Of a DNA stretch of 46,279 nt, positions 1 through 43,892 are shown in pieces. Position numbers and translations under genes: made by a program. Every line of letters begins with the position of its first letter. The first letter of the stretch is position 1. Under the pieces are notes generated by a model. The model was not told the origin of the DNA, searched no databases, and worked only from the letters and a program-made list of their open reading frames with translations. The stretch is taken from the IMG/VR virus record IMGVR_UViG_3300025300_000021, positions 1-46,279 of that record; one strand, written 5' to 3'. Source of the DNA: a virus.

Positions 1-114
1 GGCGAAGACTGGTCGTCCGTATCGGATGAAAGCGAAACGTGGTCGGAGATAAGTGCCGGGTCTGAAGTCTGGGCCACGGTATCGACAGGAAATGAAAGTT
101 GGGCGAGGCAATGA
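1..114 (+). CDS. Ala/Ser-repeat virion protein, C-terminal fragment
   Basis: This is the last 37 codons of the gene seen complete at 35576-36160, in a variant allele. It holds the three tryptophan decapeptide repeats of that protein (WSSVSDESET, WSEISAGSEV, WATVSTGNES) and ends WARQ instead of WVRQ. The 5' part is cut by the window edge, which falls just where the protein's 20-residue tandem repeat array ends. Its stop codon overlaps the next ATG (ATGA at 111-114). Confidence 0.85.
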   Translation, partial: GEDWSSVSDESETWSEISAGSEVWATVSTGNESWARQ

Positions 115-1556: not shown

Positions 1557-1879
1557 TGGCTGACAACCAATTCAGGAGGCTTCCACAAGCTGGCGCTACG
1601 CCGCGCCAGGTCGCAGAAGTGGTCAACCGGGCGCTAGACGGCGGCATCAATGCCACTGGCAGCGTGACTCTGACCGCCAGTGCGGCAAGCACTGTGGTGG
1701 CTGACAAGCGACTAAGTGCGACTAGCTATTTCGGCCTGATGCCCACGACAGCCAACGCTTCGGCTGAAGTAGGCAACGGCACGATCTATGTAAGCAGTCA
1801 AGGAAAGCAGACTTTAACGCTGACCCATGCAAACAACAGCCAGAGCGACAGAACCTACCGCTACGTCATTCTGGGATGA
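1556..1879 (+). CDS. Small tail-module virion protein
   Basis: This 107-residue protein begins MADNQFRRLPQAGATPRQVAE at an ATG sharing a base with the upstream stop (TAATG). The N-terminal half resembles a short helix that names a repeat or assembly domain. The C-terminal half (ending THANNSQSDRTYRYVILG) is beta-rich and typical of small proteins beside podovirus tail genes. No catalytic motif is visible. The allele switch of the large repeat lies inside this gene at 1799. The last 53 bases are also read in another frame by the next gene. Confidence 0.7.
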   Translation: MADNQFRRLPQAGATPRQVAEVVNRALDGGINATGSVTLTASAASTVVADKRLSATSYFGLMPTTANASAEVGNGTIYVSSQGKQTLTLTHANNSQSDRTYRYVILG

Positions 1880-2225
1880 ATGGAAGCGCTTGCGTCACCA
1901 CATCCTGGCGGCTCTTGAACACGCGGGTGATACGCATACCGAGCATGACATCCTCGACCTTTTGCGGAACGACCAGGCGCAATTCTGGCCTGCCGAGAAC
2001 TCGGCAATGATTACGGAGATTGTTGGTTACCCAAACGGCAACCACTGCCGCATCTGGCTGGCTGGCGGTGAATACGACGAATTGCGGGAGCTTGAGCGTG
2101 ACCGGCTAATACCGTGGGCGCGCTCGCAAGGGTGTCGGCGTATTGAACTGGTGGGCCGTAAAGGCTGGGCGCGTCGGCTTAAAGATTACAAGGAAGTGGC
2201 CACTGTGTTGGCCAAGGAGATATAA
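1827..2225 (+). CDS. GNAT-like phage virion-module protein
   Basis: This 132-residue protein contains the pattern HAGDTHTEHDILDLL, then QFWPAENSAMITEI, then GCRRIELVGRKGWARRL. The order is that of small phage proteins with an acetyltransferase-like (GNAT) fold found beside internal virion protein genes. No acetyl-CoA loop can be confirmed by eye. The start at 1827 overlaps the preceding gene by 53 bases; an in-frame TTG at 1890 would remove the overlap but shorten the first helix. It lies between tail and ejection-type genes, so a structural or packaging-associated role is likelier than metabolism. Confidence 0.65.
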   Translation: MQTTARATEPTATSFWDEWKRLRHHILAALEHAGDTHTEHDILDLLRNDQAQFWPAENSAMITEIVGYPNGNHCRIWLAGGEYDELRELERDRLIPWARSQGCRRIELVGRKGWARRLKDYKEVATVLAKEI

Positions 2226-3083
2226 ATGTCTAAAGGCGGATCATCGCAACCTAGCGGACAGATCGTTACGACTGAAAATAGAGACCCATGGTCTGGCGTG
2301 CAGCCATACCTATCGTATGGTCTTGGTGAGGCGCAGCGGCAATACCAGACTGCGCCACAGGAATATTATCCATTCAGCACGGTAGCGCCACAATCGGCGG
2401 ATACCATCGCAGCGCAAAACCTCATTCGCTTGCGGGCGCTTGGCGGTAATCCGCTAAACCCCCTGGCGCAACAGGGCGCGGTGGATACTCTACAGGGTAG
2501 TTGGCTGGGCGGCCCCCGATATCAAGAGATGTATGGCGCTGCTGTAAGGCCTGCTGTGCAGCAATTCACGGAACAGGTACTACCAGGCATCACGTCGCAG
2601 TTTGCCCGCTCTGGCAGGCTTGGCAGCAACGCACAGGCCCTAGCTACCGAGAGGGCCACAGAGGCATTCGGTCGTGGTTTAGCCGACGTTGGTGCTACGC
2701 AATATGCAGCCGAACGGGCGAGACAAAATCAAATGATCGGCATGGCTCCGCAGATAGCAGCCACTGACTACGCCGACCCGGCAAGGCTGGCGGCAATCGG
2801 CGCAACCCAAGGGGCGCAGGCTCAAAGGGAACTGGCCGACAAGGTCGCACGTTTCGGCTTCTACCAGCAGCGTCCGAGGGACATGCTTAGTGCATACATC
2901 AGTCAAATCCAAGGGATGCCGTTGTCAGGCACGGGAAGTTGGCAAGCCGCCACGCCGTACTACGAGAACCCCGTGGCAAGCGGTCTTGGCGGCGCATTCT
3001 CTGGGGCGCAGTTCGCAAATATGGTGGGCGTCAATCCTTGGCTGGGCGCGCTTGGCGGCGCTGGCTTGAGTTTGTTGGGTTAG
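2226..3083 (+). CDS. Putative ejection/internal virion protein
   Basis: This 285-residue protein begins MSKGGSSQPSGQIVTTE, directly after the preceding stop and behind an AAGGAGAT ribosome site. A low-complexity polar N-terminus leads into a long Ala/Gln/Arg-rich helical body (ATERATEAFGRGLADVGATQ, AAERARQNQMIGMAPQIAA). The end is Gly/Ala-rich and could insert in a membrane (GVNPWLGALGGAGLSLLG). It is the first of three consecutive helical proteins downstream of the tail hub gene, the usual place for podovirus ejection proteins. That role is inferred; no enzyme motif is seen. Confidence 0.6.
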   Translation: MSKGGSSQPSGQIVTTENRDPWSGVQPYLSYGLGEAQRQYQTAPQEYYPFSTVAPQSADTIAAQNLIRLRALGGNPLNPLAQQGAVDTLQGSWLGGPRYQEMYGAAVRPAVQQFTEQVLPGITSQFARSGRLGSNAQALATERATEAFGRGLADVGATQYAAERARQNQMIGMAPQIAATDYADPARLAAIGATQGAQAQRELADKVARFGFYQQRPRDMLSAYISQIQGMPLSGTGSWQAATPYYENPVASGLGGAFSGAQFANMVGVNPWLGALGGAGLSLLG

Positions 3084-3092
3084 GGGGCGGCC

Positions 3093-4133
3093 ATGGCAAA
3101 TCCATTTTCAGGACTGTTCGGCCAGGTCGGCGGTGGCACTGGCTTTGGCGGCCTTCTCGACCCCCGGTGGGCGGCGTTAGGTGGTGCCGCGCAGGCGCTG
3201 ACACAAGCAGGCGGGCCAACCCGTATGCCGGTCAGCACGGGCGCGGCGATGGCGAACGCAATGGCTAACGCTACCGCTAATTACCGTCAGGCCCAGGCTG
3301 CTGGGATGCAGCAACAGATGAATAAGCTGCAATACCAGAATGCACTGCGGGCAGGAGCGTTGGCTCAACAACAAGCAAAAATTCGTAGTGCGGTATTGAG
3401 CCGCTACTTGGGTGGCCGGGGTTCGCTCCCAGGCGTGGGCACACCACTAGCCCCCACTAGTTCTGAATTAGTCTCTGCGCCTACCGGGCAAAGCGGTGAT
3501 GCTTTTAACGTATCCCCACAAATGGTTAGTTCGCCTCAGTCAATGGCTGCTGCTGGACCACCGCCTTTATCTGATACCGATGCCATGCGCCTCGCTCTAT
3601 CACCGGATATTGGCAAGACGCTGGGAGAATTTAAGGGTGAGGCCCGTCAGCGTCAGCAAGATGTCCAATCAAAGCGGCAGAGCATGCTGGATACAACGAC
3701 GAAATGGCGGAAGGAATACGACAAGAAAGTCAACGCCATCAGCCCGATTGTAAATATGGGAATGAGGGCGCAGGACATTCTGAAACTTCCCGAAATTGGT
3801 CCGACAGCGCAGCTTGAAACACTCTACTCATTTATCACGGCCCTAGACCCAGAAAGTGTCGTCCGAGAGGGTGAGGTCAAGTTGGGTCGGCAAGCGCAAA
3901 GCCTGATCGGTTCCATAATGTTGCAAATCGACAGAATTACTAAGGGCGGCATCATCGATCCAAAGGTTGCGAAGACAATGGCAGAGCGGATCATTCAACT
4001 ATCCGACCGCGCACGGGGCCGAATTAATGTCATCAGCGATAAATATAGAGCTTTGGCTATACGACATCAGTACGACCCAAAAGATGTTGTGATGAGGGAT
4101 CGCGCCGATTTTAACAATGCAGAGGAAGGCTAA
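3093..4133 (+). CDS. Putative ejection/internal virion protein, Gln/Ala-rich
   Basis: This 346-residue protein begins MANPFSGLFGQVGGGTGFGG. It has a Gly-rich start, then a helical Ala/Met/Asn/Gln segment at about residues 50-105 (ANAMANATANYRQAQAAGMQ, NKLQYQNALRAGALAQQQAK). A Pro/Ser linker is followed by a charged helical second half. Composition and position match structural or ejection proteins delivered with the DNA. Its stop overlaps the start of the next gene (TAATG), which suggests coupled translation. The specific role is not recognised. Confidence 0.6.
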   Translation: MANPFSGLFGQVGGGTGFGGLLDPRWAALGGAAQALTQAGGPTRMPVSTGAAMANAMANATANYRQAQAAGMQQQMNKLQYQNALRAGALAQQQAKIRSAVLSRYLGGRGSLPGVGTPLAPTSSELVSAPTGQSGDAFNVSPQMVSSPQSMAAAGPPPLSDTDAMRLALSPDIGKTLGEFKGEARQRQQDVQSKRQSMLDTTTKWRKEYDKKVNAISPIVNMGMRAQDILKLPEIGPTAQLETLYSFITALDPESVVREGEVKLGRQAQSLIGSIMLQIDRITKGGIIDPKVAKTMAERIIQLSDRARGRINVISDKYRALAIRHQYDPKDVVMRDRADFNNAEEG

Positions 4134-5734
4134 TGGCTGACCTAGTCGAAGCCGTAAAGAATGGGCGTCCCGGTTGGGGTCTGAAAACCCCGGATGGAAG
4201 ACAAATATTCTTTGGCCAGGACAAATATAAAACTCGTGGCTCTGCAAGTGCGGCTGCGGAAAAATATATGTCAGCCGGTGATATTCAACTTGCTGATAAC
4301 CCAGTAGCAGGGCCGCTTTCATGGTCGGATGTCGCGACGCAAGCTGTCTCTAATTTGCCTGAAAGCGCGGTCCAGTTAGGCAGCGATATAGTACAGCCAT
4401 TCACTGATCCGATAGGAACGGCAAAATCTATAGCGGCTCTTGGTAGAGGTATTTATCAAAAATTAATTCCTGGCCAACAGCCCGACGAAGCTGTTGCGGA
4501 CGCTGTGGGTCAGTTTTTCATGGACCGTTACTGGGGCGTTGAAAACATTAAGCGGACATTGGCGACAGACCCAGCCGGATCTTTAGCAGACCTCGCAACT
4601 GTATTAACCGGATTTGGTGGGGCAGCAGCCCGTGCGCCGTCTGCGTTAGGTAAAGTTGGCAGGGCTGTTCAAACCGCTGCGGATTTTGTTGATCCGGTCA
4701 CCGCAGCAACAAAGGTAGCCGCCCCTGTCGCTAAGATAGGCGTCGGACTAACAACGGGTGTCGGTTCTGACGCTTTAAGTGCAGCCGCAAAGGCAGGAAA
4801 AACCGGCGGCCAGATGGCCAAGGATTTTCTGGATAATATGCGGGGTAAGGCACCTCTTGATACGGTTGTGAATGACGCTAATAAGGCGTTGGCCCGTCTA
4901 CGTGAAGAACGAGCGGCGGCATACACCAGTAAAATGGCGGAAGTTACCTCTGATCCAAAGATTCTAGACTTTGGCCCCATTACAAAGAAGCTGGGCGATG
5001 TCGGAGAGGCCGGACTTTTCCACGGTAAAGTCGTCCGCGAAGAAGTAGCGGGTACGTTTGAAAAGATTGCAAATAAAGTTCAAGAATGGGCCGAGGCTGA
5101 TCCGGCCATATTCAGAACCGTCGAGGGCCTCGATGCTCTGAAGCAGGCCATAGGCAGCATCCGGCAAAATACGAAGTTCGGCACGCCTGACCGTAAAATA
5201 GCGGACGAGATGTATCACGCCGTCAGAGAAGTGATAGCTGAACAGGCCCCCGATTACGCCGACATCATGTCCGAATACGAGAGGGCCACCGGCCTGATCC
5301 TAGAGATCCAAGACGAGTTTAAGCTGGCGGGGAAAAAGGCAAAGGTTGGTTCATCCTTAAAGGCCCTGCAATCAATCATGCGAAACAATGTCTATACGAA
5401 TTGGGGCCGACGCGGACAGTTGGCGAAACAATTAGAGAAGGCCGGGGCAGCAACCCTGAGGCCGAAACTGGCGGGGCAAGCCTTACACGAAAAAGCCCCA
5501 CGTGGATTGGCTAGGGTGCCTGCTGCCGGTGCCGCCCTATACGCCTTCAGTGATCCAACATTTGTTGCAGGGCTACCGCTAACCATCCCCCGCTTGATGG
5601 GTGAGACCGCCTATTACGGCGGCAAATGGGGTGGGCTACTTGGCCCAGGCGGGAGGGCCGCATTCCAGGCAGGCCGCCTGCAAGACATGGAACCACAGCC
5701 GCCATACGCCAAGAGCGCTGGTCGGCGACAATAA
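4133..5734 (+). CDS. Large internal virion protein candidate
   Basis: This 533-residue protein is the third and longest of the ejection-type block. It opens with a compact domain (GWGLKTPDGRQIFFG, KYKTRGSASAAAEKY) of a kind that recurs at the head of large podovirus internal proteins. Next come Ala/Gly-rich weakly hydrophobic helices (residues about 150-240), then a charged helical region (NDANKALARLREERAAAYTS) and a C-terminus with a hydrophobic stretch (AAGAALYAFSDPTFVAGLPL). No lysozyme or transglycosylase motif is evident. A terminator follows directly, so it closes a transcription segment. Confidence 0.6.
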   Translation: MADLVEAVKNGRPGWGLKTPDGRQIFFGQDKYKTRGSASAAAEKYMSAGDIQLADNPVAGPLSWSDVATQAVSNLPESAVQLGSDIVQPFTDPIGTAKSIAALGRGIYQKLIPGQQPDEAVADAVGQFFMDRYWGVENIKRTLATDPAGSLADLATVLTGFGGAAARAPSALGKVGRAVQTAADFVDPVTAATKVAAPVAKIGVGLTTGVGSDALSAAAKAGKTGGQMAKDFLDNMRGKAPLDTVVNDANKALARLREERAAAYTSKMAEVTSDPKILDFGPITKKLGDVGEAGLFHGKVVREEVAGTFEKIANKVQEWAEADPAIFRTVEGLDALKQAIGSIRQNTKFGTPDRKIADEMYHAVREVIAEQAPDYADIMSEYERATGLILEIQDEFKLAGKKAKVGSSLKALQSIMRNNVYTNWGRRGQLAKQLEKAGAATLRPKLAGQALHEKAPRGLARVPAAGAALYAFSDPTFVAGLPLTIPRLMGETAYYGGKWGGLLGPGGRAAFQAGRLQDMEPQPPYAKSAGRRQ

Positions 5735-5738
5735 CCAA

Positions 5739-5763
5739 CCCGCCCGTCGATGGCGGGTTTTTT
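5739..5763 (+). terminator. Rho-independent terminator before tail fibre gene
   Basis: CCCGCC (5739-5744), a 7-base loop and GGCGGG (5752-5757) are followed by six T (5758-5763). It sits between the internal virion protein gene and the tail fibre gene, whose start is 14 bases downstream. It may lower fibre expression relative to upstream genes, or be bypassed by antitermination. Confidence 0.85.
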
Positions 5764-5776
5764 ACGGAGTTAATTT

Positions 5777-7156
5777 ATGGCAGACACAATATCAGCCTAT
5801 TCAAAAACGGCGGCATCCAACACGACGTTGCAGTCAATTTCGTGCGCGGAAGGCATGGCCCCATCGGACGTAAATAACTGGATGCGGGCGATTATGCAGG
5901 ATCTGGCCGAGCTGTACGACGGCACCCAGTCACTGGCGACATTGAAGACCACGACCGCGTTGTCGGCAGCCGCCGGGACGGTTTCGGCGCCTTCATTGCA
6001 GGCGACAGCGGACACTAACACTGGATTATATTTCCCCGCCGCCGATACCGTTGGAGTGACTGCTGGCGGCACGGAGCAATTCCGGTTCGGCAGTATAACT
6101 GGCGGCGCAAATCCAATTCCGGGCGGAAATAAGAATTTGCTTTTGAATGGCGGTTTCACAGTGGCTCAAAGATCGTCGGTGACGGGTATTGGCGGCACCA
6201 ACTATGTTTACTACGGAACTGATGGTTGGACACACTACGGAACATCCTCATCAGGCCGTTACACCGCCAGTCAAGCAACTGCTGGCACCACAGATGGCCC
6301 GTTTAGATATTGCCTACAAATTGACGTGACCACGGCTGACACTGACACTTCGGGCAATAACATCAGTGCCGTTCTCCAAAAGATGGAAGGGCAGAATCTA
6401 CAGCACTTGAATTGGGGGCAAGCAACTGACGATTATCCGTTGGCTTTGAGCTTCTGGGTTAAATCGCCAAAATCTGGCACTCATTGCGTTGCGGTGTATC
6501 TTCAGGAAGGAAATGACTCATGCTGCACGGAATATACCGTCACGTCGGCAAATACTTGGGAATACATAACTGTCGATTTCCCCGCCCCCGGCACCTCTGT
6601 CCCTGTTATCGACAACGATGCTAATGCAAGCCTGTGGCTGGTTTTTCCGCTGATGGCGACTGGCACGTACCAATCCACAGCGGACGCATGGCAGACCAGC
6701 ACAGAAGGGTATGCAACATCAAACCAGCAGAATTTACTCGACAACACGGGCAACGATTTCTTTCTAGCCAATGTGCAACTGGAATTAGGTAGTGTCTCCA
6801 CATCGTTTCAAGCAGAAGATTACGGGACGACATTAGCTAAGTGCCAACGCTATTACGTTAAATGGACTACTGCCAGTGGAGTTGGTCTGGCTGGAACCTG
6901 TAGGAGTACATCAACTGGTATTGTTGGCGGGTTAGACTTTCCAACCACAATGAGGGCAGCGCCAACCATGACATGGGGAACTTTTAACACCATCGATTCA
7001 TCTGCCGGCGGGGTTGATGGCACTCTGTCCACCAATGCGGCAGGGATTCATAGTGTAACTGCTACGATTGCCAGTGGTTCAGGATATGTGGATGGAAACG
7101 GTCTTTTTGTAGAACTTAAATCTGGCCAGGTACTTGAAGCAGCAGCGGAGTTATAA
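5777..7156 (+). CDS. Tail fibre / receptor-binding protein
   Basis: This 459-residue protein begins MADTISAYSKTAASNTTLQS behind an ACGGAG ribosome site. The N-terminal 140 residues are a typical phage fibre lead-in (SDVNNWMRAIMQDLAELYDG, then ATADTNTGLYFPAADTVGV). The body from about residue 120 (NLLLNGGFTVAQRSS) is a jelly-roll-like carbohydrate-binding module pattern (LSFWVKSPKSGTHCVAVYL, NDFFLANVQLELGS, CQRYYVKW). This layout occurs in many phage fibres that bind surface glycans. It is the likely host-range determinant. No neighbouring reverse transcriptase or variable repeat suggests targeted diversification. Confidence 0.85.
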   Translation: MADTISAYSKTAASNTTLQSISCAEGMAPSDVNNWMRAIMQDLAELYDGTQSLATLKTTTALSAAAGTVSAPSLQATADTNTGLYFPAADTVGVTAGGTEQFRFGSITGGANPIPGGNKNLLLNGGFTVAQRSSVTGIGGTNYVYYGTDGWTHYGTSSSGRYTASQATAGTTDGPFRYCLQIDVTTADTDTSGNNISAVLQKMEGQNLQHLNWGQATDDYPLALSFWVKSPKSGTHCVAVYLQEGNDSCCTEYTVTSANTWEYITVDFPAPGTSVPVIDNDANASLWLVFPLMATGTYQSTADAWQTSTEGYATSNQQNLLDNTGNDFFLANVQLELGSVSTSFQAEDYGTTLAKCQRYYVKWTTASGVGLAGTCRSTSTGIVGGLDFPTTMRAAPTMTWGTFNTIDSSAGGVDGTLSTNAAGIHSVTATIASGSGYVDGNGLFVELKSGQVLEAAAEL

Positions 7157-7158
7157 CT

Positions 7159-7329
7159 ATGAAATATTTTAAGCATATCGACAATGGCCGCACAAAATAT
7201 TATGCAGCAGAAGGTACTCCGAATGTGAATATTCCGCCAGACCCTAACAATACGGACTACGCCCGCATGATGGAAGAGGTCGAGGCGGGCACCTCCACGA
7301 TCCAAGAAGTAGACGGCACCCCCGAATGA
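7159..7329 (+). CDS. Small 56-residue protein after tail fibre
   Basis: This short gene encodes MKYFKHIDNGRTKYYAAEGT and continues with a Pro/Asn-rich middle and an acidic end (YARMMEEVEAGTSTIQEVDG). It starts two bases after the fibre gene's stop and its own stop overlaps the next start (ATGA), so it looks co-translated. The aromatic start and position suggest a fibre assembly or tail-tip accessory, but that is a guess. No domain is recognised. Confidence 0.65.
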   Translation: MKYFKHIDNGRTKYYAAEGTPNVNIPPDPNNTDYARMMEEVEAGTSTIQEVDGTPE

Positions 7330-7646
7330 CCCGCCTCGCCGCCGCCCTCGCAGCCGCCCTCGTGGCGGCTTTTTTAATGCCTGCCGTCCAGGCCCAGCAG
7401 ATGCCTTTAATCTGCCAGGCTCATCACAAGATAGCTGACCGGCTGTTGCAAGAATATCGGGAGATCGTCGTCGCCCATGGGCTTGCCGGGGATTCGCTAT
7501 TCGAACTTTTCGCGAGTTCGCACGGGAGCTGGACAGTCGTCGTCACTCGGCCCAACATGAATAATTTGGCTTGTATCCAGGGGACCGGGACCGATCTCTC
7601 TATGACCGGGAATAAGTACCCGCCACCGAAAGCTGACCCCGCGTGA
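7326..7646 (+). CDS. Exported protein with signal peptide
   Basis: This 106-residue protein has a clear signal peptide, MTRLAAALAAALVAAFLMPA, with probable cleavage after VQA (about residue 23). The mature part has a conserved look: CQAHHKIADRLLQEYRE, GLAGDSLFELFASSHGSW, then RPNMNNLACIQGTG with a second Cys that could pair with the first. Similar small periplasmic proteins are widespread in alphaproteobacterial phages and genomes without a known function. It opens the lysis/accessory block, so an envelope role is likely. Overlapping start and stop codons join it to both neighbours. Confidence 0.7.
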   Translation: MTRLAAALAAALVAAFLMPAVQAQQMPLICQAHHKIADRLLQEYREIVVAHGLAGDSLFELFASSHGSWTVVVTRPNMNNLACIQGTGTDLSMTGNKYPPPKADPA

Positions 7647-7840
7647 CGATCAGACCTGAAAACATAGACGCCGCTGCCGCCGGATCGGGTTTTGCCGCAT
7701 CACTTTGGAATTTTATTCTTGGCGGGGATTTCAACACTCTGCTCGGCACGGCCATCGGCGCTCTGTCGATTATTGTCCTCATTCAAAGATGGCGCATAAA
7801 TCGGAAAGCGTTGCGCGCGGAAAGCGCGGCAGAAAAGTGA
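7643..7840 (+). CDS. Small single-TM protein (lysis block)
   Basis: This 65-residue protein starts at a GTG overlapping the preceding TGA (GTGA). One membrane segment (LLGTAIGALSIIVLIQRW, about residues 33-50) is followed by a basic tail (RINRKALRAESAAEK), predicting an N-out/C-in orientation. Genes of this size beside spanin-like and endolysin genes can be holin or antiholin components. The assignment rests on size, topology and neighbours only. Confidence 0.55.
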   Translation: MTIRPENIDAAAAGSGFAASLWNFILGGDFNTLLGTAIGALSIIVLIQRWRINRKALRAESAAEK

Positions 7841-7846
7841 TTTCAT

Positions 7847-8161
7847 ATGGAATTCGATCTTCGAATGCTCCTGTCTGTCGGCGCTGTTTTTGCGAGCGTT
7901 GTCGCTGCCATGGCAATCGCCAGACATCAAATTGGCGCCATCACCGCTCAACTTGAAGAATTTAAGGCGTCAATCAGGCAACTCGATAATCGTCTTGACC
8001 GCATCGACGTAGAAACCAACAACCTGCGTCAGCGCGTCAACATTTTGACGGACATCTCTGCGCCGTCAAATCTGGAAGCCAAAGTTCGCGAACTAACGTC
8101 TCTGGGAAAAGACGTTGAGCATTTGAAAGAAGAAATTCGTCGGCTGGCGCGGGCAAGTTAA
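7847..8161 (+). CDS. Membrane-anchored coiled-coil protein (i-spanin-like)
   Basis: This 104-residue protein has an N-terminal membrane anchor (MLLSVGAVFASVVAAMAIA, residues about 7-25). The rest is a long coiled coil (ITAQLEEFKASIRQLDNRL, RIDVETNNLRQRVNIL, LGKDVEHLKEEIRRLARAS). That is the topology of inner-membrane spanins such as Rz, and of phage DUF1640/coiled-coil holin accessories. It lies directly upstream of a nuclease and the endolysin. No lipoprotein partner (Rz1-like) with a lipobox was found inside or beside it, so the spanin call is tentative. Confidence 0.55.
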   Translation: MEFDLRMLLSVGAVFASVVAAMAIARHQIGAITAQLEEFKASIRQLDNRLDRIDVETNNLRQRVNILTDISAPSNLEAKVRELTSLGKDVEHLKEEIRRLARAS

Positions 8162-8551
8162 TTGGTCGGCGACAACAATGATGTTGGTCGCGCAGGCGAA
8201 TATCTGGCGGCGGCCTGTCTTGAAAAGAACGGCTGGCGCGTGGTCGTGGCGACGACGGAAGGCGTTGACTTGATCGCCATGAAGGACAAACGCATCAAGC
8301 GTATCCAGGTCAAGGCTTCGAAATCACCACAAAAAGATGGCCGGTGGTACCAATTTATGACCAGCCGCGGAATACGGCGGCGGAAACTCACGAAGGATGA
8401 CTGCGACATCGTTTGCCTGGTGGCCGTCGATCTGGACGTTTGCTTATTTCGCCGAGTGCAGGACATCACCACCCTCACATCGACAATAGCGTGCGATATG
8501 ATGACGCCAGAAAATGAAGAAAAGAGTTTCAAAAAGGCATTCGGTAAATGA
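8162..8551 (+). CDS. PD-(D/E)XK nuclease, possible homing-type
   Basis: This 129-residue protein uses a TTG start immediately after the preceding stop; no in-frame ATG exists upstream of the first motif. It reads as a PD-(D/E)XK nuclease: GRAGEYLAAACLEKNGW supplies the first acidic residue, GVDLIAMKDK the catalytic Asp, and RIQVKASKS the QVK motif. A similar minimal fold serves Holliday-junction resolvases, restriction enzymes and the group I intron endonuclease I-Ssp6803I. It sits between lysis genes, an odd place for a replication enzyme. Given three endonuclease-less group I introns elsewhere in this genome, a free-standing homing role is worth testing but unproven. Confidence 0.7.
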   Translation: MVGDNNDVGRAGEYLAAACLEKNGWRVVVATTEGVDLIAMKDKRIKRIQVKASKSPQKDGRWYQFMTSRGIRRRKLTKDDCDIVCLVAVDLDVCLFRRVQDITTLTSTIACDMMTPENEEKSFKKAFGK

Positions 8552-9153
8552 GAAACCGCGCAGAAATTGAATTGCGCTATGCCGAATATCACGAAATTGA
8601 AGGCTACATCATAAACGGCTGGAAGTTCAACGGGCCGTTGAAAGGCCATACTGAAAACTATGACTGTCTGGTCTACCGCGAATTGCCGGAACGTATTTTC
8701 AACCGCCCCAAGCCGATAGAAAAAATGGACGCAAAACAACTTTCCGACGATTTGAAAATGGACGAAGGCGTCAAGCTGAAGCCGTACCATTGCACGGCTG
8801 GCGCCTTGACGATCGGCACCGGCAGAAATTTAGACGCCATAGGTATTTCCGCCGTCGAGGCGATGGATCTGCTGGACAACGACATCAAGCGCACTGTCAG
8901 TGAACTGAATGCCGGGTTTCCGTGGTGGAGCAAGATGCCGGAACCGGCCCAGCGCGGTCTGGCGAACATGGCATTCAATCTCGGGGTGCCCAGATTACGA
9001 GGATTTTCCCGTATGCTGGCGGCCTTGAAGGATGGTGATTTTGACACCGCCGCAACGGAAGCCCTGGACAGCCAGTGGGCCGACCAGGTCGGCGAACGGG
9101 CCAACAGAATTTCAGCATTGTTTTTGAAGGCGGAAGAAGACACCAATGGCTGA
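8548..9153 (+). CDS. GH24 (T4 lysozyme-type) endolysin with N-terminal extension
   Basis: This 201-residue protein carries the muramidase core from about residue 60 (MDAKQLSDDLKMDEGVKLKP, then TAGALTIGTGRNLDAIG). The active-site pattern is Glu73, Cys82, Thr88, the Glu-Cys/Asp-Thr triad of GH24 lysozymes. It would cut the glycan backbone of peptidoglycan. No signal peptide or SAR-type anchor is visible, so it needs a holin. The first 59 residues form an extra aromatic, charged domain (ELRYAEYHEIEGYIINGWKF). An internal ATG at 8725 would give a core-only form. The start overlaps the nuclease gene (ATGA). Confidence 0.85.
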   Translation: MRNRAEIELRYAEYHEIEGYIINGWKFNGPLKGHTENYDCLVYRELPERIFNRPKPIEKMDAKQLSDDLKMDEGVKLKPYHCTAGALTIGTGRNLDAIGISAVEAMDLLDNDIKRTVSELNAGFPWWSKMPEPAQRGLANMAFNLGVPRLRGFSRMLAALKDGDFDTAATEALDSQWADQVGERANRISALFLKAEEDTNG

Positions 9154-9472
9154 CAATGTGGTCAAGGTCGTTGAGACCTCCCGCGAATACGAATTGCTGG
9201 CCTCTGATCTGGCGCCCCCCACCGGGGACGACGCGCAAACTTGGTGCAATCAGACGGCTGGGTTGCTTGATAAGTTCCGGGTGATCCCCCGGCTGATAAT
9301 GCTGGCATATATATACGCCTTTTATGAATCCACGATGTGGTTCATGGCGCTGTCAGATCCAACCAATGCACAGGCGGCATTTATTTCCACAATCGTGGGC
9401 GCGGGTGCTGCGTTCTTCGGACTCTATGTAGGAAAAGGCGGATCGCCGATGCCCAGCGGGCGCAAAAGATGA
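9146..9472 (+). CDS. Two-TM membrane protein, holin candidate
   Basis: This 108-residue protein overlaps the end of the endolysin gene by 8 bases. A polar N-terminus of about 45 residues is followed by two hydrophobic segments (IMLAYIYAFYESTMWFMAL and ISTIVGAGAAFFGLYVG) and a basic tail SGRKR. Small two-TM proteins beside an endolysin are commonly holins. Its neighbour is also holin-like, so the pair may act as holin and antiholin or as subunits of one complex. Confidence 0.65.
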   Translation: MADNVVKVVETSREYELLASDLAPPTGDDAQTWCNQTAGLLDKFRVIPRLIMLAYIYAFYESTMWFMALSDPTNAQAAFISTIVGAGAAFFGLYVGKGGSPMPSGRKR

Positions 9473-9936
9473 TCGCACTTTTAGGCAGTCTTCTGGGCTT
9501 TTCCACGTCCATTATCCCTGAGATTCTCGGTTTTTTTAGGCAGGGCCAAGCCAACAAACAGGAATTAGCCATGCTGGCAGCCAAGGCACAGTATGCTCAG
9601 GCTCTGTCCACCATGAATTTACAGGAACTGGACGCCAAGGCTGATATAGTAGAAACGGAAAAACTCTATGAACACGACATGGCTCTGGCCGCACATGGCG
9701 GCTGGGTTGTGTCCCTTCAAGCCAGCGTCAGGCCGGTCATCACCTATCTTTTCATGGGAACATTTATAGCCGTAGAGGTGGGCTTGGTATACTCACTGAT
9801 TGCAAATCAAGACGTTGATTGGCCGACGGCTCTGGAAAGTGCCTTTGGGGAAGAAGAAATGGGGCTATTGGCTTGCATCATTTCGTTCTGGTTTGGAAAC
9901 CGGGCCATGAGCAGGGCAAGGGCGACGAAGAAATAG
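9469..9936 (+). CDS. Three-TM holin (GTA type)
   Basis: This 155-residue protein starts MIALLGSLLGFSTSIIPEIL at an ATG overlapping the previous stop; a longer upstream reading from 9337 is out of character. It has an N-terminal hydrophobic segment and a helical charged middle (QELDAKADIVETEKLYEHD). It ends in SVRPVITYLFMGTFIAVEVG and MGLLACIISFWFGNRAM, two membrane spans finishing in FWFGNRAM. This matches the holin family used by alphaproteobacterial gene-transfer agents (three TM holin, PF11351-type). It is the last rightward late gene and its 3' end overlaps a convergent gene. Confidence 0.8.
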   Translation: MIALLGSLLGFSTSIIPEILGFFRQGQANKQELAMLAAKAQYAQALSTMNLQELDAKADIVETEKLYEHDMALAAHGGWVVSLQASVRPVITYLFMGTFIAVEVGLVYSLIANQDVDWPTALESAFGEEEMGLLACIISFWFGNRAMSRARATKK

Positions 9937-10113
9937 CTGTTTCACCCGCCGCTTTGCCTTTGCCACAACTGCATCCCTGACGTACCGCGAAATTGAAACG
10001 TCACCACGGGCCTTGTCCACCAACGCGCGGTCTTCATCTGACAGATATACGTTGATGCGGTGCGGCCACTTATGGCTGCCCACCGGACGGCCAAGTTTTT
10101 TTTGATCAGTCAT
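9865..10113 (-). CDS. Ribbon-helix-helix DNA-binding protein
   Basis: This 82-residue protein has a CopG/Arc-like core: RINVYLSDEDRALVDKARG (strand plus helix) then SISRYVRDAVVAKAKRR. The basic start (KKLGRPVGSHKWPH) resembles AT-hook-like tails. It would bind DNA as a dimer of beta ribbons, probably as a repressor. It is the last of three leftward genes and overlaps the end of the holin gene by 72 bases in convergent orientation. A palindrome over the -10 box of this small operon (10749-10765) is a natural target for self-regulation. Confidence 0.75.
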   Translation of the reverse strand: MTDQKKLGRPVGSHKWPHRINVYLSDEDRALVDKARGDVSISRYVRDAVVAKAKRRVKQLFLRRPCPAHGPVSKPERNDASQ

Positions 10114-10291
10114 TCCATTGCGCTTCCAAATGGGAACGGTTTTCCAAGGCGCCGGTTTCTTTTTTCCGCCTTAATTCCAACCGCGCAATATCGTCCTCTA
10201 TGGCGGCTCTGCGGCCTTCATCTGCAGGTGTCTTGCCCTTGATCTTGGCAAGTTTTTCATAGAAAACTTCAATCTCTTTATTAAGGGCCAT
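10106..10291 (-). CDS. Small coiled-coil protein, unknown
   Basis: This 61-residue protein begins MALNKEIEVFYEKLAKIKGK, with a GGAGAAGG ribosome site just upstream. A longer upstream extension of the frame lacks such a site and crosses a hairpin. The sequence is helical and charged (EGRRAAIEDDIARLELRRKK), consistent with a short coiled coil. Its end overlaps the start of the ribbon-helix-helix gene by 8 bases, so the two are probably translated together. No family is recognised. Confidence 0.65.
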   Translation of the reverse strand: MALNKEIEVFYEKLAKIKGKTPADEGRRAAIEDDIARLELRRKKETGALENRSHLEAQWND

Positions 10292-15894: not shown

Positions 15895-16346
15895 TGCGCG
15901 ATCCGGTTGTCTTCATCATCTGGTCTGAACCCGTCGCAAAGGGCCGTCCGCGGTTTTCAAGGAGGCGTACCTACACGCCCAAAAAAACCAAACAGTATGA
16001 AGACCGCGTTGCTGAAATCGCCAGACGCGAAATGCAGAGCAAGCCGCCGCTAGGCGGTGCAGTCAAAATGGAGGTGATGGCATGTTTCAGAGTTCCGGCT
16101 TCGTGGCCGACATGGAAACGGCTGGCCGCACAAGCTGGGCTGCTAGGCCATACACACCGACCGGATCTGGACAATCTTGGCAAGGCAATCAGCGATGCGC
16201 TGAATGGGATCGTCTACGAAGACGATTCCCAGATTACCGAAATGGATATCAAAAAATCCTACGGCTACCGGGATTGCGTACAGGTGAAAATCACACCGCT
16301 GAAAATTCACGCCGCCAAAAATATCGCCAAGGAAGATTTGGCATGA
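15894..16346 (+). CDS. rusA: RusA-type Holliday junction resolvase
   Basis: This 150-residue protein matches RusA: WSEPVAKGRPRFSRRR at the start, then THRPDLDNLGKAISDALNGI with Asp91, Asp93 and Lys97, and YEDDSQITEMDIKKSYG with the third acidic site (Asp110/111). RusA dimers cut four-way junctions symmetrically, resolving recombination or replication intermediates before packaging. It is the second gene of the rightward early operon and overlaps genes on both sides. Confidence 0.92.
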   Translation: MRDPVVFIIWSEPVAKGRPRFSRRRTYTPKKTKQYEDRVAEIARREMQSKPPLGGAVKMEVMACFRVPASWPTWKRLAAQAGLLGHTHRPDLDNLGKAISDALNGIVYEDDSQITEMDIKKSYGYRDCVQVKITPLKIHAAKNIAKEDLA

Positions 16347-16615
16347 AGGCGCGGAAACGGATCTTAAAAGAAGCGTCCAGCCTGATTTCTGGCGACCGCC
16401 ATAAGCAGCATGGCGACGCGAAAGAAAACTTCACCAATATAGCGAAGGGCTGGGAAGTCATTCTTGGAGTTGAAATTCCAATCTACAAGGTCGGTCTGTG
16501 TTTTGATTGGGCCAAGACCTGTAGAACGAACGCCAGTCCAAAGGAAATGGACAACTATACGGACGGCTGTGGCTACAAGGCATTGGCTGGCGAGTTGGCG
16601 GCAGATGAAGAATGA
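16343..16615 (+). CDS. Conserved phage protein with RHKQHGD motif
   Basis: This 90-residue protein starts MKARKRILKEASSLISGDRH at an ATG overlapping the rusA stop. The sequence HKQHGDAKENFTNIAKGWEV and the helical C-terminus (YKVGLCFDWAKTCRTNAS) match a small phage family (DUF6378-like from memory) usually found among early metabolic genes. The all-helical His/Asp/Glu pattern recalls MazG-like pyrophosphohydrolases, but I cannot confirm metal ligands. Its stop overlaps the methyltransferase start. Confidence 0.7.
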   Translation: MKARKRILKEASSLISGDRHKQHGDAKENFTNIAKGWEVILGVEIPIYKVGLCFDWAKTCRTNASPKEMDNYTDGCGYKALAGELAADEE

Positions 16616-17685
16616 CCGCCTACTACAACGAATTCGAACCCTTTGCCGCGGCATGGCTCAGAGAGCTGATCGCGGACGGGTTGATTGCGGATGGCGAGGT
16701 CGATGACAGATCAATACTCGATGTTCGGCCTGACGACCTCAGAGGCTACGACCAGTGCCACTTCTTCGCAGGCATCGGAGGATGGAGCCACGCTCTCAGA
16801 CTCGCCGGATGGCCAGATGACCGGCCAGTCTGGACAGGATCATGTCCTTGTCAGCCGCTTTCGAGCGCGGGACAGCAAAAAGGCCATGAGGACGAACGAC
16901 ACATCTGGCCCGCTTTTTACGGCCTCATCGCCGAGTGCCAGCCTACAACGGTCTTTGGAGAACAGGTTGGATCAAAACTTGGACTTGAATGGCTCGCTGG
17001 AGTTCGCGCTGATCTGGAAAGCAGTGGATATGCCTGCGGGGCCGCCGATCTACCGGCTGCGGGCGTCGGGGCGCCGCACATCAGGCAAAGATTATGGTGG
17101 GTGGGCCACGCCGACAGCGAGCGGCAACCCGCCGAGGTCACCGGAGTTCGTCAAGGGTTGCGACAGCCTATCACCGGAGGAGGCGCTGCCAGCCGGGTGG
17201 CCGACAACATCGGCGAACGATCACATGCCGCAAAGTCCGTTACCGGAACATCTAAACGCCTACATGGGTCAGCCGTCACCGCGGATGAAGGAAACGGGAT
17301 GGCCGACGCCAGTGACAGACGAGTGCGGGGAGTCAAGCCGAATGACGGGCTACCTAATGGGCAAGCCAGTACCGCCGTCAGAGCAATACAAGACGGCGGG
17401 ATGGCCGACGCCGACAGCGAGGGATTGGAAGGATACAAGGGAAACAACCCAGAAATTACGCGACCAATATACTCAGAACACGGAAGCAAACCGCCCGACC
17501 ACACTTGGGCTTCAGGCGAGCTTATCCCCTGCGCCGACGGAAAAGCGAGGCGCACTCAACCCGGAATTTTCCCTCTGGCTTATGGGATACCCAACAGAAT
17601 GGGCACGTTGCGCGGAGCGGGTAACGCGATCGTCCCGCAAGTCGCATCAGTCTTCATAACCGCATACATGGAGAGCGAGCAATGA
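16612..17685 (+). CDS. C5-cytosine DNA methyltransferase
   Basis: This 357-residue protein carries the Dcm-family motifs. Motif I is HFFAGIGGWSHALRLAGW (about residues 50-67). The catalytic Cys is in GSCPCQPLSSAGQQKG (about 77-91). The ENV-equivalent is VFGEQVGSK, motif VIII is APHIRQRLWWVGHADS, and the GN motif is GTLRGAGNAIVPQVASVF near the end. It transfers a methyl group from S-adenosylmethionine to cytosine C5, probably to evade host restriction. The region between motifs VIII and X is unusual because most of the gene is also open in another frame with a protein-like product (16703-17659). No partner restriction gene is visible. Confidence 0.92.
   Translation: MTAYYNEFEPFAAAWLRELIADGLIADGEVDDRSILDVRPDDLRGYDQCHFFAGIGGWSHALRLAGWPDDRPVWTGSCPCQPLSSAGQQKGHEDERHIWPAFYGLIAECQPTTVFGEQVGSKLGLEWLAGVRADLESSGYACGAADLPAAGVGAPHIRQRLWWVGHADSERQPAEVTGVRQGLRQPITGGGAASRVADNIGERSHAAKSVTGTSKRLHGSAVTADEGNGMADASDRRVRGVKPNDGLPNGQASTAVRAIQDGGMADADSEGLEGYKGNNPEITRPIYSEHGSKPPDHTWASGELIPCADGKARRTQPGIFPLAYGIPNRMGTLRGAGNAIVPQVASVFITAYMESEQ
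16703..17659 (+). CDS. Overprinted protein with WPTP repeats, inside the methyltransferase gene
   Basis: This 318-residue reading lies in the +1 frame of the methyltransferase gene. It starts MTDQYSMFGLTTSEATTSAT behind a GGCGAGG site. It has a Ser/Thr-rich start, then SLENRLDQNLDLNGSLEFAL. Repeats follow that are built on Gly-Trp-(Pro/Ala)-Thr-Pro (GWATPTASGN, GWPTTSANDH, GWPTPVTDEC, GWPTPTARDWKDT). It ends NPEFSLWLMGYPTEWARCAE. I recall the same motif series in phage and prophage proteins annotated as hypothetical or methylase-associated, which argues for a real product. Dual coding over about 950 bp is exceptional. Function unknown; a specificity partner or antirestriction role is only a guess. 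Confidence 0.6.
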   Translation: MTDQYSMFGLTTSEATTSATSSQASEDGATLSDSPDGQMTGQSGQDHVLVSRFRARDSKKAMRTNDTSGPLFTASSPSASLQRSLENRLDQNLDLNGSLEFALIWKAVDMPAGPPIYRLRASGRRTSGKDYGGWATPTASGNPPRSPEFVKGCDSLSPEEALPAGWPTTSANDHMPQSPLPEHLNAYMGQPSPRMKETGWPTPVTDECGESSRMTGYLMGKPVPPSEQYKTAGWPTPTARDWKDTRETTQKLRDQYTQNTEANRPTTLGLQASLSPAPTEKRGALNPEFSLWLMGYPTEWARCAERVTRSSRKSHQSS

Positions 17686-18284
17686 AACAGTGCAACGGAT
17701 GCGGTGAATTTTTCCATGGCAAAAACAAAACCTGCGCATCCTGCATTGTCGACATCTATGAACGATACAAGGCCGGTGAAACATCAAGAAGCATCGCCGG
17801 CGATTATGACATGACCCGCAACCAGGTCATCGGGCTGATGCACCGGCAGAAGCCGGAGGGCTTTCGTCACCTCGGGGCGGGAAACAAGGGCGGCAGACGT
17901 TCGCCAGCTCCAATCAGCACACGGGAAAAACAAGTGGTCGCGCAGGGTCTGAAGAATGGGCTGACCATCAGCCAGATGTCCAAACAACTTGATTACGGCA
18001 ATTACAGCAGCCGCGTTCTCAATCTGGCAGCGAAAATTCTTGAAGGCATCAAGAACAAGGTAAAAAACAAGGTTCCCGAAAACCGAGCTTGCCAGTACCC
18101 GTTTGGCGACCCTCAAGATATCGACTTTCATTTCTGCGGCCAACGCAAACAGATGGGTAGCAGTTATTGCGTGGTTCATCACGCGGTCTGCCACCAACAA
18201 GACAGCCAGTTGAACAAGAGCAGGCCAAAGGGGACTTTCCGACCGGCCAGCCGACCCAGCATACACACCATCCGGTGGCGGTAG
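17682..18284 (+). CDS. GcrA-family cell-cycle regulator homologue
   Basis: This 200-residue protein begins with a zinc-knuckle-like MKQCNGCGEFFHGKNKTCAS, then an HTH-like region (RYKAGETSRSIAGDYDMTRN, VIGLMHRQKPEGFRH). It ends with the GcrA signature CQYPFGDPQDIDFHFCG followed by GSSYCVVHH. GcrA is an alphaproteobacterial sigma-70 cofactor that binds RNA polymerase and senses adenine methylation at GANTC sites. A phage copy could redirect host transcription. It overlaps the methyltransferase stop (ATGA). The N-terminal Cys cluster is not typical of cellular GcrA. Confidence 0.75.
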   Translation: MKQCNGCGEFFHGKNKTCASCIVDIYERYKAGETSRSIAGDYDMTRNQVIGLMHRQKPEGFRHLGAGNKGGRRSPAPISTREKQVVAQGLKNGLTISQMSKQLDYGNYSSRVLNLAAKILEGIKNKVKNKVPENRACQYPFGDPQDIDFHFCGQRKQMGSSYCVVHHAVCHQQDSQLNKSRPKGTFRPASRPSIHTIRWR

Positions 18285-27583: not shown

Positions 27584-29626
27584 ATGGCCAAACTTGACGA
27601 CACCGAAATCCATCGGATCGTGCAGAACGAGATCGATGACGCTGTCCTCTATCAAGAGGAGGAGCATACCGGGTTTCGGGATAAGGCGACCAACTACTAC
27701 TACGGCGAGCCGTTCGGCAATGAAGTCGAGAACCAGAGCCAGGTCGTAAGCCGGGACGTCGCCGACACCGTTGGCTTTATTATGCCTTCTCTGATGAAGA
27801 TCTTTGCCAGCAGCAAGGACTACGTCAGCTTTCAGCCGCGCCACCCTGAAGACGAAGACGCCGCCAAGCAAGCCAGCGAATACGTTAACTGGATCGTGAC
27901 CGACCAGAACCCCGGCTACAAGGTCATCCAGAACTGGATGCACGACGCCCTGGTGTTCCGCCTTGGCGTGGTCAAGTTCTACTGGCGTGACCCGGAATTT
28001 GACGGCCCCGAATCCTACGACGGCCTGACCGAGAACCAACTGGCCATGCTGGTCAACGACCCCAAGGTCGAGATCCTTGAACAGGAAATAGGTTACGGCG
28101 GTTACGCCGACAACGAGGCCGACGAGGAATACGGCGATATGGCGCAGGCCCTGCCGCCAACCTATTCAGTCAAAATCAGAACCAAGTTGGAAAACGGCCA
28201 GTGCGTTCTGGAGAACGTGCCGCCCGAAGAGTTTCTGTATTCACGCCACGCGAAGTCCCTGGAAGATGCGGACTTCGTCGGCCACCGCCGCATGATGAGC
28301 GTCAGCGAACTGATCACCATGGGTTACGACCGCGACGACATCGAGCGGTATAGCGGCGGCGAAGAGAGCAACATGAGCGAGGAGGTGACGGCCCGCTTTC
28401 AAGATTTATCGAGTGGTGGCGGCGACAGCACTATCGACCCAAGCAGGCGCGAGGTCGAGTGCGTTGAAGCCTATATGAAAGTAGACGACGGCACGGGCGT
28501 CAGCGAGTTGCGGCGCTTCTTCTGCGTCGGCGCGGGCCGCGAGATTTTAGAAGACGAGCCATTTGACCAACTACCTTTTGCCACATTAACGCCACATTTG
28601 ATCCCGCACCGCCTGGTTGGCCGGTCGGTCACCGACGACACGCAAGACTTGCAGTTGATCAAGTCCACGGTACTGCGGCAGATCATGGATGGTGCTTACC
28701 AATCTACAAATCCGCGAGTGATGGCGGTCGAGGGCCAAGTCAATATCAGCGACCTGATGGAGAACCGGCCCGGCAACATAGTGAGAGTCCGCGCACCGGG
28801 CATGGTGCAGCCGTTGCCGATACAGCCGGTCTGGCAGTCCACATTCCCGTTGCTGGAATACCTCGACAACGTGCGCGAGACCCGCACCGGGATCAGCAAA
28901 GCCTCTATGGGCTTAGACCCTGACGCATTGCAGTCAACTACGGCCACGGCAGTCGCAGCCACAGTCAGCGCAGCCCAGTGCAAAGTTGAACAGATCGCCA
29001 GGGTATTTGCCGAAACGGGCTTCCGCGACCTGTTCAAAGGCATCCTACGTCTGGTTACCCACTATCAGGATGCCCCGCAGATCATCAGACTCACTAACAA
29101 TTATGTGGAAATGGACCCACGCGAGTGGACCTCCGGTTTCGATCTGATCGTGAATGTCGGCCTGGGCACCACACAACAAGATCAAAAATTAGCGTTACTC
29201 GCACAGATCGCTGGCAAGCAAGAACAGTTATTGCAAACACTCGGCCCAGCCAATCCGGTCGTGGGCGTCAATCAATATGTCGGCACCCTGCGCAAAATGG
29301 TCGAGGCTGCTGGCTTCAAGGACGCTGGACAGTTCTTTAACGACGTGCCGCCGGAAGTCGCGCAACAGATGGGCCAGCAAGAGCAACAGCCCGACCCGAT
29401 GGCGCAAGCCGCCATGGCTGCGGTTGAGATCGATAAGGCCAAGGCCGAAGCCGACATCCAGATCAAGCGCGAGAAAATGGAAGCCGACATCCAGTTGGCC
29501 AGAGAAAAATTGCAGATGGAAATGCAACTCAAGCAGGCCGAGCTTGAAAACGAAGCGCGGCTGCAAGGTATCAAGTTGGCTAACAAGATTGGTGAACAGG
29601 GCACCAATATTAAGGCGGTGGTTTAG
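27584..29626 (+). CDS. Portal protein (P22/SU10-like)
   Basis: This 680-residue protein begins MAKLDDTEIHRIVQNEIDDA. The N-terminal part has the podovirus portal pattern (YYGEPFGNEVENQSQVVSRD, ADTVGFIMPSLMKIF, PGYKVIQNWMHDALVFRLG). The middle includes QDLQLIKSTVLRQIMDGAY and PNRVMA-like clip residues. The C-terminal 130 residues are a long Gln/Lys/Glu coiled barrel (IDKAKAEADIQIKREKMEAD). Twelve copies form the DNA channel at the head vertex. Its length is usual for this group. The stop is followed at once by the next ATG. Confidence 0.9.
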   Translation: MAKLDDTEIHRIVQNEIDDAVLYQEEEHTGFRDKATNYYYGEPFGNEVENQSQVVSRDVADTVGFIMPSLMKIFASSKDYVSFQPRHPEDEDAAKQASEYVNWIVTDQNPGYKVIQNWMHDALVFRLGVVKFYWRDPEFDGPESYDGLTENQLAMLVNDPKVEILEQEIGYGGYADNEADEEYGDMAQALPPTYSVKIRTKLENGQCVLENVPPEEFLYSRHAKSLEDADFVGHRRMMSVSELITMGYDRDDIERYSGGEESNMSEEVTARFQDLSSGGGDSTIDPSRREVECVEAYMKVDDGTGVSELRRFFCVGAGREILEDEPFDQLPFATLTPHLIPHRLVGRSVTDDTQDLQLIKSTVLRQIMDGAYQSTNPRVMAVEGQVNISDLMENRPGNIVRVRAPGMVQPLPIQPVWQSTFPLLEYLDNVRETRTGISKASMGLDPDALQSTTATAVAATVSAAQCKVEQIARVFAETGFRDLFKGILRLVTHYQDAPQIIRLTNNYVEMDPREWTSGFDLIVNVGLGTTQQDQKLALLAQIAGKQEQLLQTLGPANPVVGVNQYVGTLRKMVEAAGFKDAGQFFNDVPPEVAQQMGQQEQQPDPMAQAAMAAVEIDKAKAEADIQIKREKMEADIQLAREKLQMEMQLKQAELENEARLQGIKLANKIGEQGTNIKAVV

Positions 29627-31392: not shown

Positions 31393-32433
31393 ATGGCTGA
31401 TACCAGCATCCCTGAAGGGACTGGCACCGGCCCGCTGTCTGTAAACAGCGCGGTCGAACACCTTCTGTCTATACCGGCTCCAGAACAGGAACCTCCGGTC
31501 GAAGCGGAAGAGCAACCAGCGCCGGAAATACTCGACGCTGGCACAGACGACGCCGAGGACGACGCGCCCGTGGAAGCGGCAAACGCAGACGCCGAGGATG
31601 ACCAAGACCAGGTCGCAGACGACGATGACGACGACAGTGATGAAGCCACCATTGACTACTACACGGTAAAGGTTGCCGGTGAGGATGTTGATGTATCGGC
31701 GGACGAGCTGATCGCTGGCTATCAGCGTGGTGGCGACTATACGCAAAAGACGCAGGCATTAGCTGCCGACCGTAAAGCGGTCGATGGCGAACGCCAGCAA
31801 TTTGCGCAGGCGAGCCAGGAGCTTTCAGAGATGAGAGCGCACCTCGCCACCAGGCTGCAAATGGCCGACGAGATGTTGCAGACAGGTGCCGGGGAACCGG
31901 AACCAAACTGGGACCAGTTGCGAGACGACGACCCAATGGAATACATGGTTCAGCGGGATCAGTTTCGTGACCGTCAAGAAAAACAACGCCAAGTCCAAGA
32001 AGAACGGGCAGCGTTGCAGGCCCAGCACACCGCCGCTACGCAACAGCAGTGGGCGGCGCATCTCCAGAATGAACACGCAGCACTTCTTGAGCGAATACCC
32101 GAATGGCGGGATAACGACGTGGCGGCGAAGGAGAAATCCGACGTCATCACATACGCCCAGCGCTCCGGATTCAGTGAGCAAGAGCTAAGCCAAGCATCTG
32201 ATAGTCGGGCAATTTCGATTTTGCGTAAGGCAATGTTATTCGACGCCTTGCAGAACGAAACGCCCAAGGCCAAGGTCAAAGTCAAGAACGCGCCCCGAAT
32301 GGTTCGCGCTGGCCGACCTAAAAGCAAAGCCGAAAAATCCTCAAGGCGGCAGGCTGACAAGCTCTCCCGCATTTCACAAACCAAGGGCAGAGATTCTATG
32401 GATGCAGCCGTTGAATATCTGCTTGAACGATAG
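31393..32433 (+). CDS. Scaffolding protein
   Basis: This 346-residue protein starts MADTSIPEGTGTGPLSVNSA. Residues 25-85 are highly acidic (many Asp/Glu, including a run of Asp). A domain with VKVAGEDVDVSADELIAGYQ and GDYTQKTQAL follows, which is a common phage scaffold motif. Then comes a long Gln/Glu/Arg coiled coil (QEKQRQVQEERAALQAQHTA) and a basic C-terminus (MVRAGRPKSKAEKSSRRQAD) that would bind the capsid protein. It is placed directly before the capsid gene. It would guide procapsid assembly and then leave. Confidence 0.85.
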   Translation: MADTSIPEGTGTGPLSVNSAVEHLLSIPAPEQEPPVEAEEQPAPEILDAGTDDAEDDAPVEAANADAEDDQDQVADDDDDDSDEATIDYYTVKVAGEDVDVSADELIAGYQRGGDYTQKTQALAADRKAVDGERQQFAQASQELSEMRAHLATRLQMADEMLQTGAGEPEPNWDQLRDDDPMEYMVQRDQFRDRQEKQRQVQEERAALQAQHTAATQQQWAAHLQNEHAALLERIPEWRDNDVAAKEKSDVITYAQRSGFSEQELSQASDSRAISILRKAMLFDALQNETPKAKVKVKNAPRMVRAGRPKSKAEKSSRRQADKLSRISQTKGRDSMDAAVEYLLER

Positions 32434-37602: not shown

Positions 37603-37925
37603 TGGCTGACAATCAATTTCGGAGGCTTCCACAAGCTGGCGCTACGCCCCGCCAGATCGCGGAAGTCGTCAACAGAGCTTTAGACGGCGGCATCAACGCC
37701 ACTGGCAGCGTGACATTAACGGCCAGTGCAGCAACGACAGCAGTGGCTGATAAGCGCCTTAGCGCCACTAGCTATTTCGGACTGATGCCAACCACGGCCA
37801 ATGCCGCTGCCGAGATTGGCAACGGTACCATCTACGTGAGTGCCCAAGGAAAGCAGACTTTAACGCTGACCCATGCAAACAACAGCCAGAGCGACAGAAC
37901 CTACCGCTACGTCATTCTGGGATGA
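37602..37925 (+). CDS. Small tail-module virion protein (second allele)
   Basis: Counterpart of 1556-1879, 107 residues, with six residue differences, all before position 37845 (for example RQIAEVV for RQVAEVV). After that point the copies are the same. The join between diverged and identical sequence therefore lies inside this gene. Confidence 0.7.
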   Translation: MADNQFRRLPQAGATPRQIAEVVNRALDGGINATGSVTLTASAATTAVADKRLSATSYFGLMPTTANAAAEIGNGTIYVSAQGKQTLTLTHANNSQSDRTYRYVILG

Positions 37926-39129: not shown

Positions 39130-39138
39130 GGGGCGGCC

Positions 39139-41780: not shown

Positions 41781-41784
41781 CCAA

Positions 41785-41809
41785 CCCGCCCGTCGATGGC
41801 GGGTTTTTT
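41785..41809 (+). terminator. Terminator before tail fibre (second copy)
   Basis: Same CCCGCC/GGCGGG hairpin and six T as at 5739-5763, between the internal virion protein and fibre genes. Confidence 0.85.
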
Positions 41810-41822
41810 ACGGAGTTAATTT

Positions 41823-43202: not shown

Positions 43203-43204
43203 CT

Positions 43205-43886: not shown

Positions 43887-43892
43887 TTTCAT

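Follow-up and report, generated by a model that had tools for sequence, protein, structure and literature searches.

Canonical C5-cytosine DNA methyltransferases carry ten motifs on one chain. M.EcoHK31I is built from two, and the gene for its small chain begins inside the large-chain gene and is read in another frame. To our knowledge, bacteria and their viruses have few long overlapping genes that are at once certain, ancient and widely distributed. In M.EcoHK31I, the large chain holds motifs I–VIII and X and the small chain motif IX, and in M.AquI a C5 methyltransferase is naturally split in its variable region (PMC3404938). Here we analyze a viral locus in which a methyltransferase gene, alpha, is overlapped in its +1 frame by a second gene, beta. 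We consider it highly probable that alpha and beta together form one two-polypeptide C5-cytosine DNA methyltransferase. The motif split would be that of M.EcoHK31I (from E. coli, recognizing YGGCCR), to which we liken the locus by its motif layout.

The window, that is the whole stretch of DNA analyzed, comprises 46,279 nucleotides of an IMG/VR virus record (IMGVR_UViG_3300025300_000021). Positions 1–10233 recur at 36047–46279 (10,233 bases, offset 36,046, 97.1% identical), and judged from this repeat the window looks like a genome of about 36 kb that was run through more than once, the assembly having mixed two variants. Portal (27584–29626; phrog_1216, E 2e-160) and head scaffolding proteins (31393–32433) are encoded elsewhere in it. 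We take the portal family to be P22-like, so the virus is presumably a podovirus.

Two reading frames at one locus

Alpha (16612..17685, plus strand, 357 amino acids) is the large chain of a C5-cytosine DNA methyltransferase, matching phrog_363 (DNA methyltransferase; E 1.6e-75) and PF00145 (E 2.6e-13). Within its motif I–VIII and X complement, five plus-strand motifs follow each other in the expected order: motif I (FFAGIGG, 16756..16809), motif IV (PCQ with the catalytic cysteine, 16840..16872), motif VI (GEQV replacing ENV, 16951..16968), motif VIII (GAPHIRQRLWW, 17068..17103) and motif X (GNAIVPQVA, 17611..17646). An earlier sequence-only reading had credited this frame with all motifs of the family, which holds for these five but fails for motif IX: among the window's alpha and 154 relatives, none has motif IX in frame 0 (0/155).

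The start of alpha overlaps the stop of the upstream ORF and its stop overlaps the start of the downstream ORF, as in a tight operon. The upstream ORF (16082–16615) covers a RusA gene over most of its first 88 codons. Because its DUF6378 domain begins only at residue 93, its true start probably lies at the ATG near 16337. Alpha is followed by a gene (17682–18284) with a match to PF07750 (E 1.7e-15), the GcrA cell-cycle regulator known from Alphaproteobacteria, hinting at an alphaproteobacterial host.

The +1 frame is free of stops from 16685 to 17659, and the ATG at 16703 opens beta (16703..17659, plus strand, 318 amino acids; phrog_1008, E 1.1e-22), a putative motif-IX/target-recognition subunit. 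GAGG stands three bases 5' of this ATG (16696..16705, plus strand), and Shine-Dalgarno matches accompany 41% of beta-frame ATGs near the start vs 6% of control ATGs inside alpha. The frame of 318 codons with its own ATG and ribosome site, as first read from the letters, was thus correctly placed, and so were its repeated Gly-Trp-Pro-Thr-Pro units. We find four GW(P/A)T(P/T) units on the plus strand (17099..17425; starts at 17099, 17195, 17297 and 17399), in a region where beta is more constrained than alpha and which is a possible target-recognition or linker region. They are flanked by a conserved N-terminal module, a helix and a beta-hairpin, that lies over alpha motifs VI–VIII (16952..17083, plus strand), and by a motif IX-like segment, ALNPEFSLWLMGYPTEW (17552..17602, plus strand), picked out by a profile match and by its position before motif X. 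Beta's motif IX-like LNPEFSLWLMGYP sits just 5' of alpha's motif X. Across the beta family, the two conserved modules are this N-terminal helix and hairpin and an LNPxxSxWLMGxPxEW segment; the number of W-P-T-P units between them varies.

Searches of beta against Pfam, NCBIfam and solved structures returned no match, and the N-terminal module has no counterpart among the solved structures searched. An AlphaFold model of beta built from 106 sequences is poor overall (pLDDT 58.7, pTM 0.25); only the N-terminal module, its best-predicted part with a 10-residue mean pLDDT of up to 89, and the motif-IX helices are predicted well. All 26 beta proteins scanned match both PHROG 1008 and PHROG 31772, which are named 'DNA methyltransferase'. 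The entries as shown make no mention of being the second frame of phrog_363, and the name presumably stems from overlapping annotations.

Conservation and selection in the overlap

A long second frame could be a mere by-product: the MADADS-like repeats of alpha, written in GC-rich codons, would read WPTPTA in the +1 frame, and GC-rich DNA has few stops. Indeed, the repeats mirror each other on the same DNA (GGATGGCCGACGCCGACAGCG reads both MADADS and GWPTPTA) and the gene is moderately GC-rich. Yet this account, which we regard as the least probable of all those considered, does not survive permutation of alpha's synonymous codons with protein and codon usage retained. The longest +1 open run averaged 118 codons in 5000 shuffles (99.9th percentile, 279), and none reached the 324 codons of the window; the +2 frame of the window is ordinary, with a longest open run of 88. 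Such shuffles destroy the open frame also at 45–55% GC. A composition artefact was rejected on the same count of 0/5000, and the dual-coding observation is real and far above chance.

Relatives fetched by similarity to alpha alone behave in the same way. In nearly all 80 of them, the +1 frame stays free of stops along most of alpha, and the +2 frame is broken as expected. Many second-frame stops in homologous methyltransferases would have spoken against dual coding; over a fixed alpha-anchored stretch, 40 of the 47 non-redundant complete loci among these relatives have no +1 stop vs 0.7 expected. The 47 loci contain 8 stops in +1 vs 182 expected and 602 in +2 vs 545 expected. The result extends to more remote loci, retrieved with alpha queries from Lactobacillus phage Lc-Nu and the environmental phage ctgrD200 and ranging from 41 to 62% GC: 36 of 37 exceed the 95th percentile of their own shuffles for +1 openness.

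Whether homologues of the second frame always lie over a methyltransferase, a check proposed with the sequence-only reading, can be answered from 244 beta loci in viruses and in the genomes of bacteria from several phyla, pooled from the hits of a beta profile and those of the alpha search. All but one, 243 in total, have beta in the +1 frame of an overlapping alpha; in the exception (L143), the best alpha piece lies outside beta, yet a second alpha piece overlaps it. We also scanned viral contigs with a DNA pattern that encodes only EWLMGFP and takes no account of methyltransferases; of the 75 loci with a detectable C5-methyltransferase core, 73 have the motif in the +1 frame of that core. 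Homology of the betas found by this pattern to that of the window extends along 215 columns (hhalign 99.9%, a score that the repeats may inflate). In locus L365, the EWLMGFP segment lies in frame +2 of the core within a short ORF, which may reflect a frameshift in sequencing or a locus in decay.

Selection acts on both frames. In 33 independent pairs of relatives, we classed changes as altering alpha, beta, both or neither. Two estimators gave omega values of 0.61 (0.54–0.69) and 0.43 (0.36–0.52) for beta and of 0.48 and 0.34 for alpha; with pairs picked greedily by distance and multiple hits uncorrected, these rates are indicative, and what stands firm is how the overlap differs from the sequence outside it. 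Alpha and beta are both under purifying selection. Outside the overlap, alpha's four-fold sites vary at 0.40 (first 25 codons) and 0.41 (beyond the stop of beta); inside it, the values are 6–36%, lowest over beta's N-terminal module (0.062) and 0.069 over beta's motif IX (the WLMGYP segment). The excess of synonymous-site constraint that the earlier reading had proposed to look for is thus present, and only within the overlap, which refutes the by-product account. Constraint on the DNA unrelated to coding of beta was considered and rejected, since the constraint follows beta's frame and conserved modules.

Alpha evolves almost neutrally in the variable middle (0.82 and 0.68), and beta is tighter (0.65 and 0.54). 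There, alpha's first codon positions, which are beta's third, change more than alpha's third positions, making beta the more constrained frame of the variable region, again contrary to a by-product. Alpha looks like the passenger in this stretch. Together, the shuffles, the relatives and the selection analysis strongly support the original proposal that this DNA encodes two proteins.

Motif IX, its in-frame counterparts and natural fusions

Of the same 155 loci, 152 have a motif IX-like segment in the +1 frame, and 59 nt separate it from motif X in frame 0 in 129 loci. Along the DNA, motifs I, IV, VI and VIII in alpha's frame are followed by the repeats and motif IX in beta's frame and then by motif X, back in alpha's frame. 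Single-chain mycobacteriophage enzymes carry LNPAFPEWMMGWPTGW in frame, directly 5' of motif X, and this segment aligns with beta's LNPEFSLWLMGYPTEW (hhalign 89.5%, P 2e-6, over a short 23 columns). WillSterrel gp71 and Papez gp46, both from mycobacteriophages, have the same core type and an EWMMGWP/EWLMGLP segment before motif X. They differ in that all motifs stand in one frame, and motifs IX and X are 90 nt apart in the WillSterrel type vs 59 nt in the alpha/beta loci. The C-terminus of the single-chain enzymes gave a non-significant match among solved structures (E 0.88), to the C-terminal segment of the DNA methyltransferase 4onj. Taken with the short profile match, the position before motif X and the fusions described below, this marks beta's ALNPEFSLWLMGYPTEW as a putative motif IX. 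In four mycobacteriophage loci with the recognition region and motif IX in frame (L248, L303, L308 and L318), the +1 frame still shows a beta-like N-terminal module, for example GSIEYSETWPKTGYMSGG.

Since this motif order is collinear with that of single-chain enzymes, programmed frameshifting might be thought to join both frames into one chain. We consider this very improbable, because beta's N-terminal module lies 5' of the needed shift point, over alpha motifs VI–VIII, because beta starts on its own, at ATGs enriched in Shine-Dalgarno matches, and because motif X could be reached only by two opposite shifts.

That two chains work together is classically signalled by the fusion of their genes. 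In contig L363 and in MT837127, the latter found by tblastn on phages, one ORF encodes alpha with motif X and then a beta-type tail; the two are 52.8% identical. Against phages PS-1, BUCT711 and Shamal, the first two thirds of the L363 protein, its alpha part, match one frame (E at most 6e-43), and the last third, its beta part, matches the frame overlapping it (E at most 4e-18). As a query in viral contigs, the fusion returned only itself. The window's beta matches the fused-type tail over 29 columns at 65% probability, and the proposed link between the two draws chiefly on their common position, frame and motif. AlphaFold gave no usable model of a natural alpha–beta fusion from single sequence (pLDDT 34.7).

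Could beta instead be a genuine overlapping protein that acts outside the enzyme, such as a counter-defence protein or a regulator? Its conserved N-terminal module without a solved-structure counterpart and its lack of a Pfam or NCBIfam family would allow it. We nonetheless judge this unlikely: the motif IX that alpha misses is present in beta, the segment stands in frame within single-chain enzymes, two contigs encode alpha fused to a beta-type tail, and beta is almost never found without alpha. Because alpha lacks motif IX, beta has it, and both in-frame counterparts and fusions exist, beta is most likely the motif-IX/target-recognition subunit. The sequence-only reading had offered a hidden subunit or an antirestriction factor; the in-frame counterparts and fusions make the subunit the better suggestion, and the antirestriction role found no support. 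Its further idea that the partner was born by overprinting finds no support for the C-terminal part of beta, which looks like an ordinary methyltransferase segment shifted into another frame.

These comparisons suggest how the enzyme may work. One mRNA with two starts would yield two chains, with beta translated from its own ribosome site inside alpha. Alpha, carrying the cofactor-binding and catalytic motifs I–VIII and the closing motif X, would bind AdoMet and flip and methylate the base. Beta would complete the small domain with motif IX and probably provide most of the target-recognition surface, such that a segment read in frame by single-chain enzymes is now apparently read in the other frame. 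Alpha and beta would assemble on DNA into one active enzyme, which we expect to modify the phage genome, most likely to shield it from restriction by the host.

Breadth and comparison with known two-chain enzymes

Phages with the alpha/beta overlap infect hosts of three phyla, Bacillota, Actinomycetota and Pseudomonadota. We see even chances that dual-frame coding is the usual form in a large class of C5 methyltransferases of phages across these phyla, with specificity lying largely in the beta frame, which would place it among the most widespread long same-strand overlapping pairs known. If so, recognition can evolve where alpha is free to change. The pair, of about 950 nt, is conserved between proteins that are only 30–50% identical and is a strong test case for two proteins evolving on one DNA.

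The overlap is present in hundreds of phages, and beta is missing from most public annotations. The records of K1ind2 and PhiXhv-5 annotate both genes, with the beta of K1ind2 labelled 'Mte8-like protein'; for the classic phage N15, only alpha is annotated; and for XFactor (L253 2302–3161) and Shamal (L249 2279–2978), beta alone is annotated, as a hypothetical protein, and alpha is missed. Many phage cytosine methyltransferases annotated as one gene probably need two, and assays of alpha alone would wrongly score them as inactive. We found no earlier description of the phage methyltransferase overlap in the literature searched, in which subscription journals were thinly covered.

Beyond the motif split, the comparison with M.EcoHK31I brings out two differences. 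M.EcoHK31I is part of a restriction-modification system with a nuclease, whereas alpha and beta stand among phage genes; among 82 ORFs neighboring bacterial relatives, no restriction endonuclease appeared in the commonest 25 of 37 Pfam matches, although many such enzymes have no Pfam family. The literature places the predicted recognition domain of M.EcoHK31I in its large chain. Unlike in that prediction, alpha is under almost no constraint in the corresponding region, and under less than beta. M.AquI shares the natural split, but its second chain holds motifs IX and X, whereas alpha keeps motif X. In Gordonia phage GordDuk1, alpha ends soon after motif VIII and the +1 chain holds motifs IX and X, an arrangement that by its motif layout looks M.AquI-like. 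A precedent for the motif split is thus known from M.EcoHK31I, and what the phage loci add is the breadth over three phyla, the evidence from selection and the fusions.
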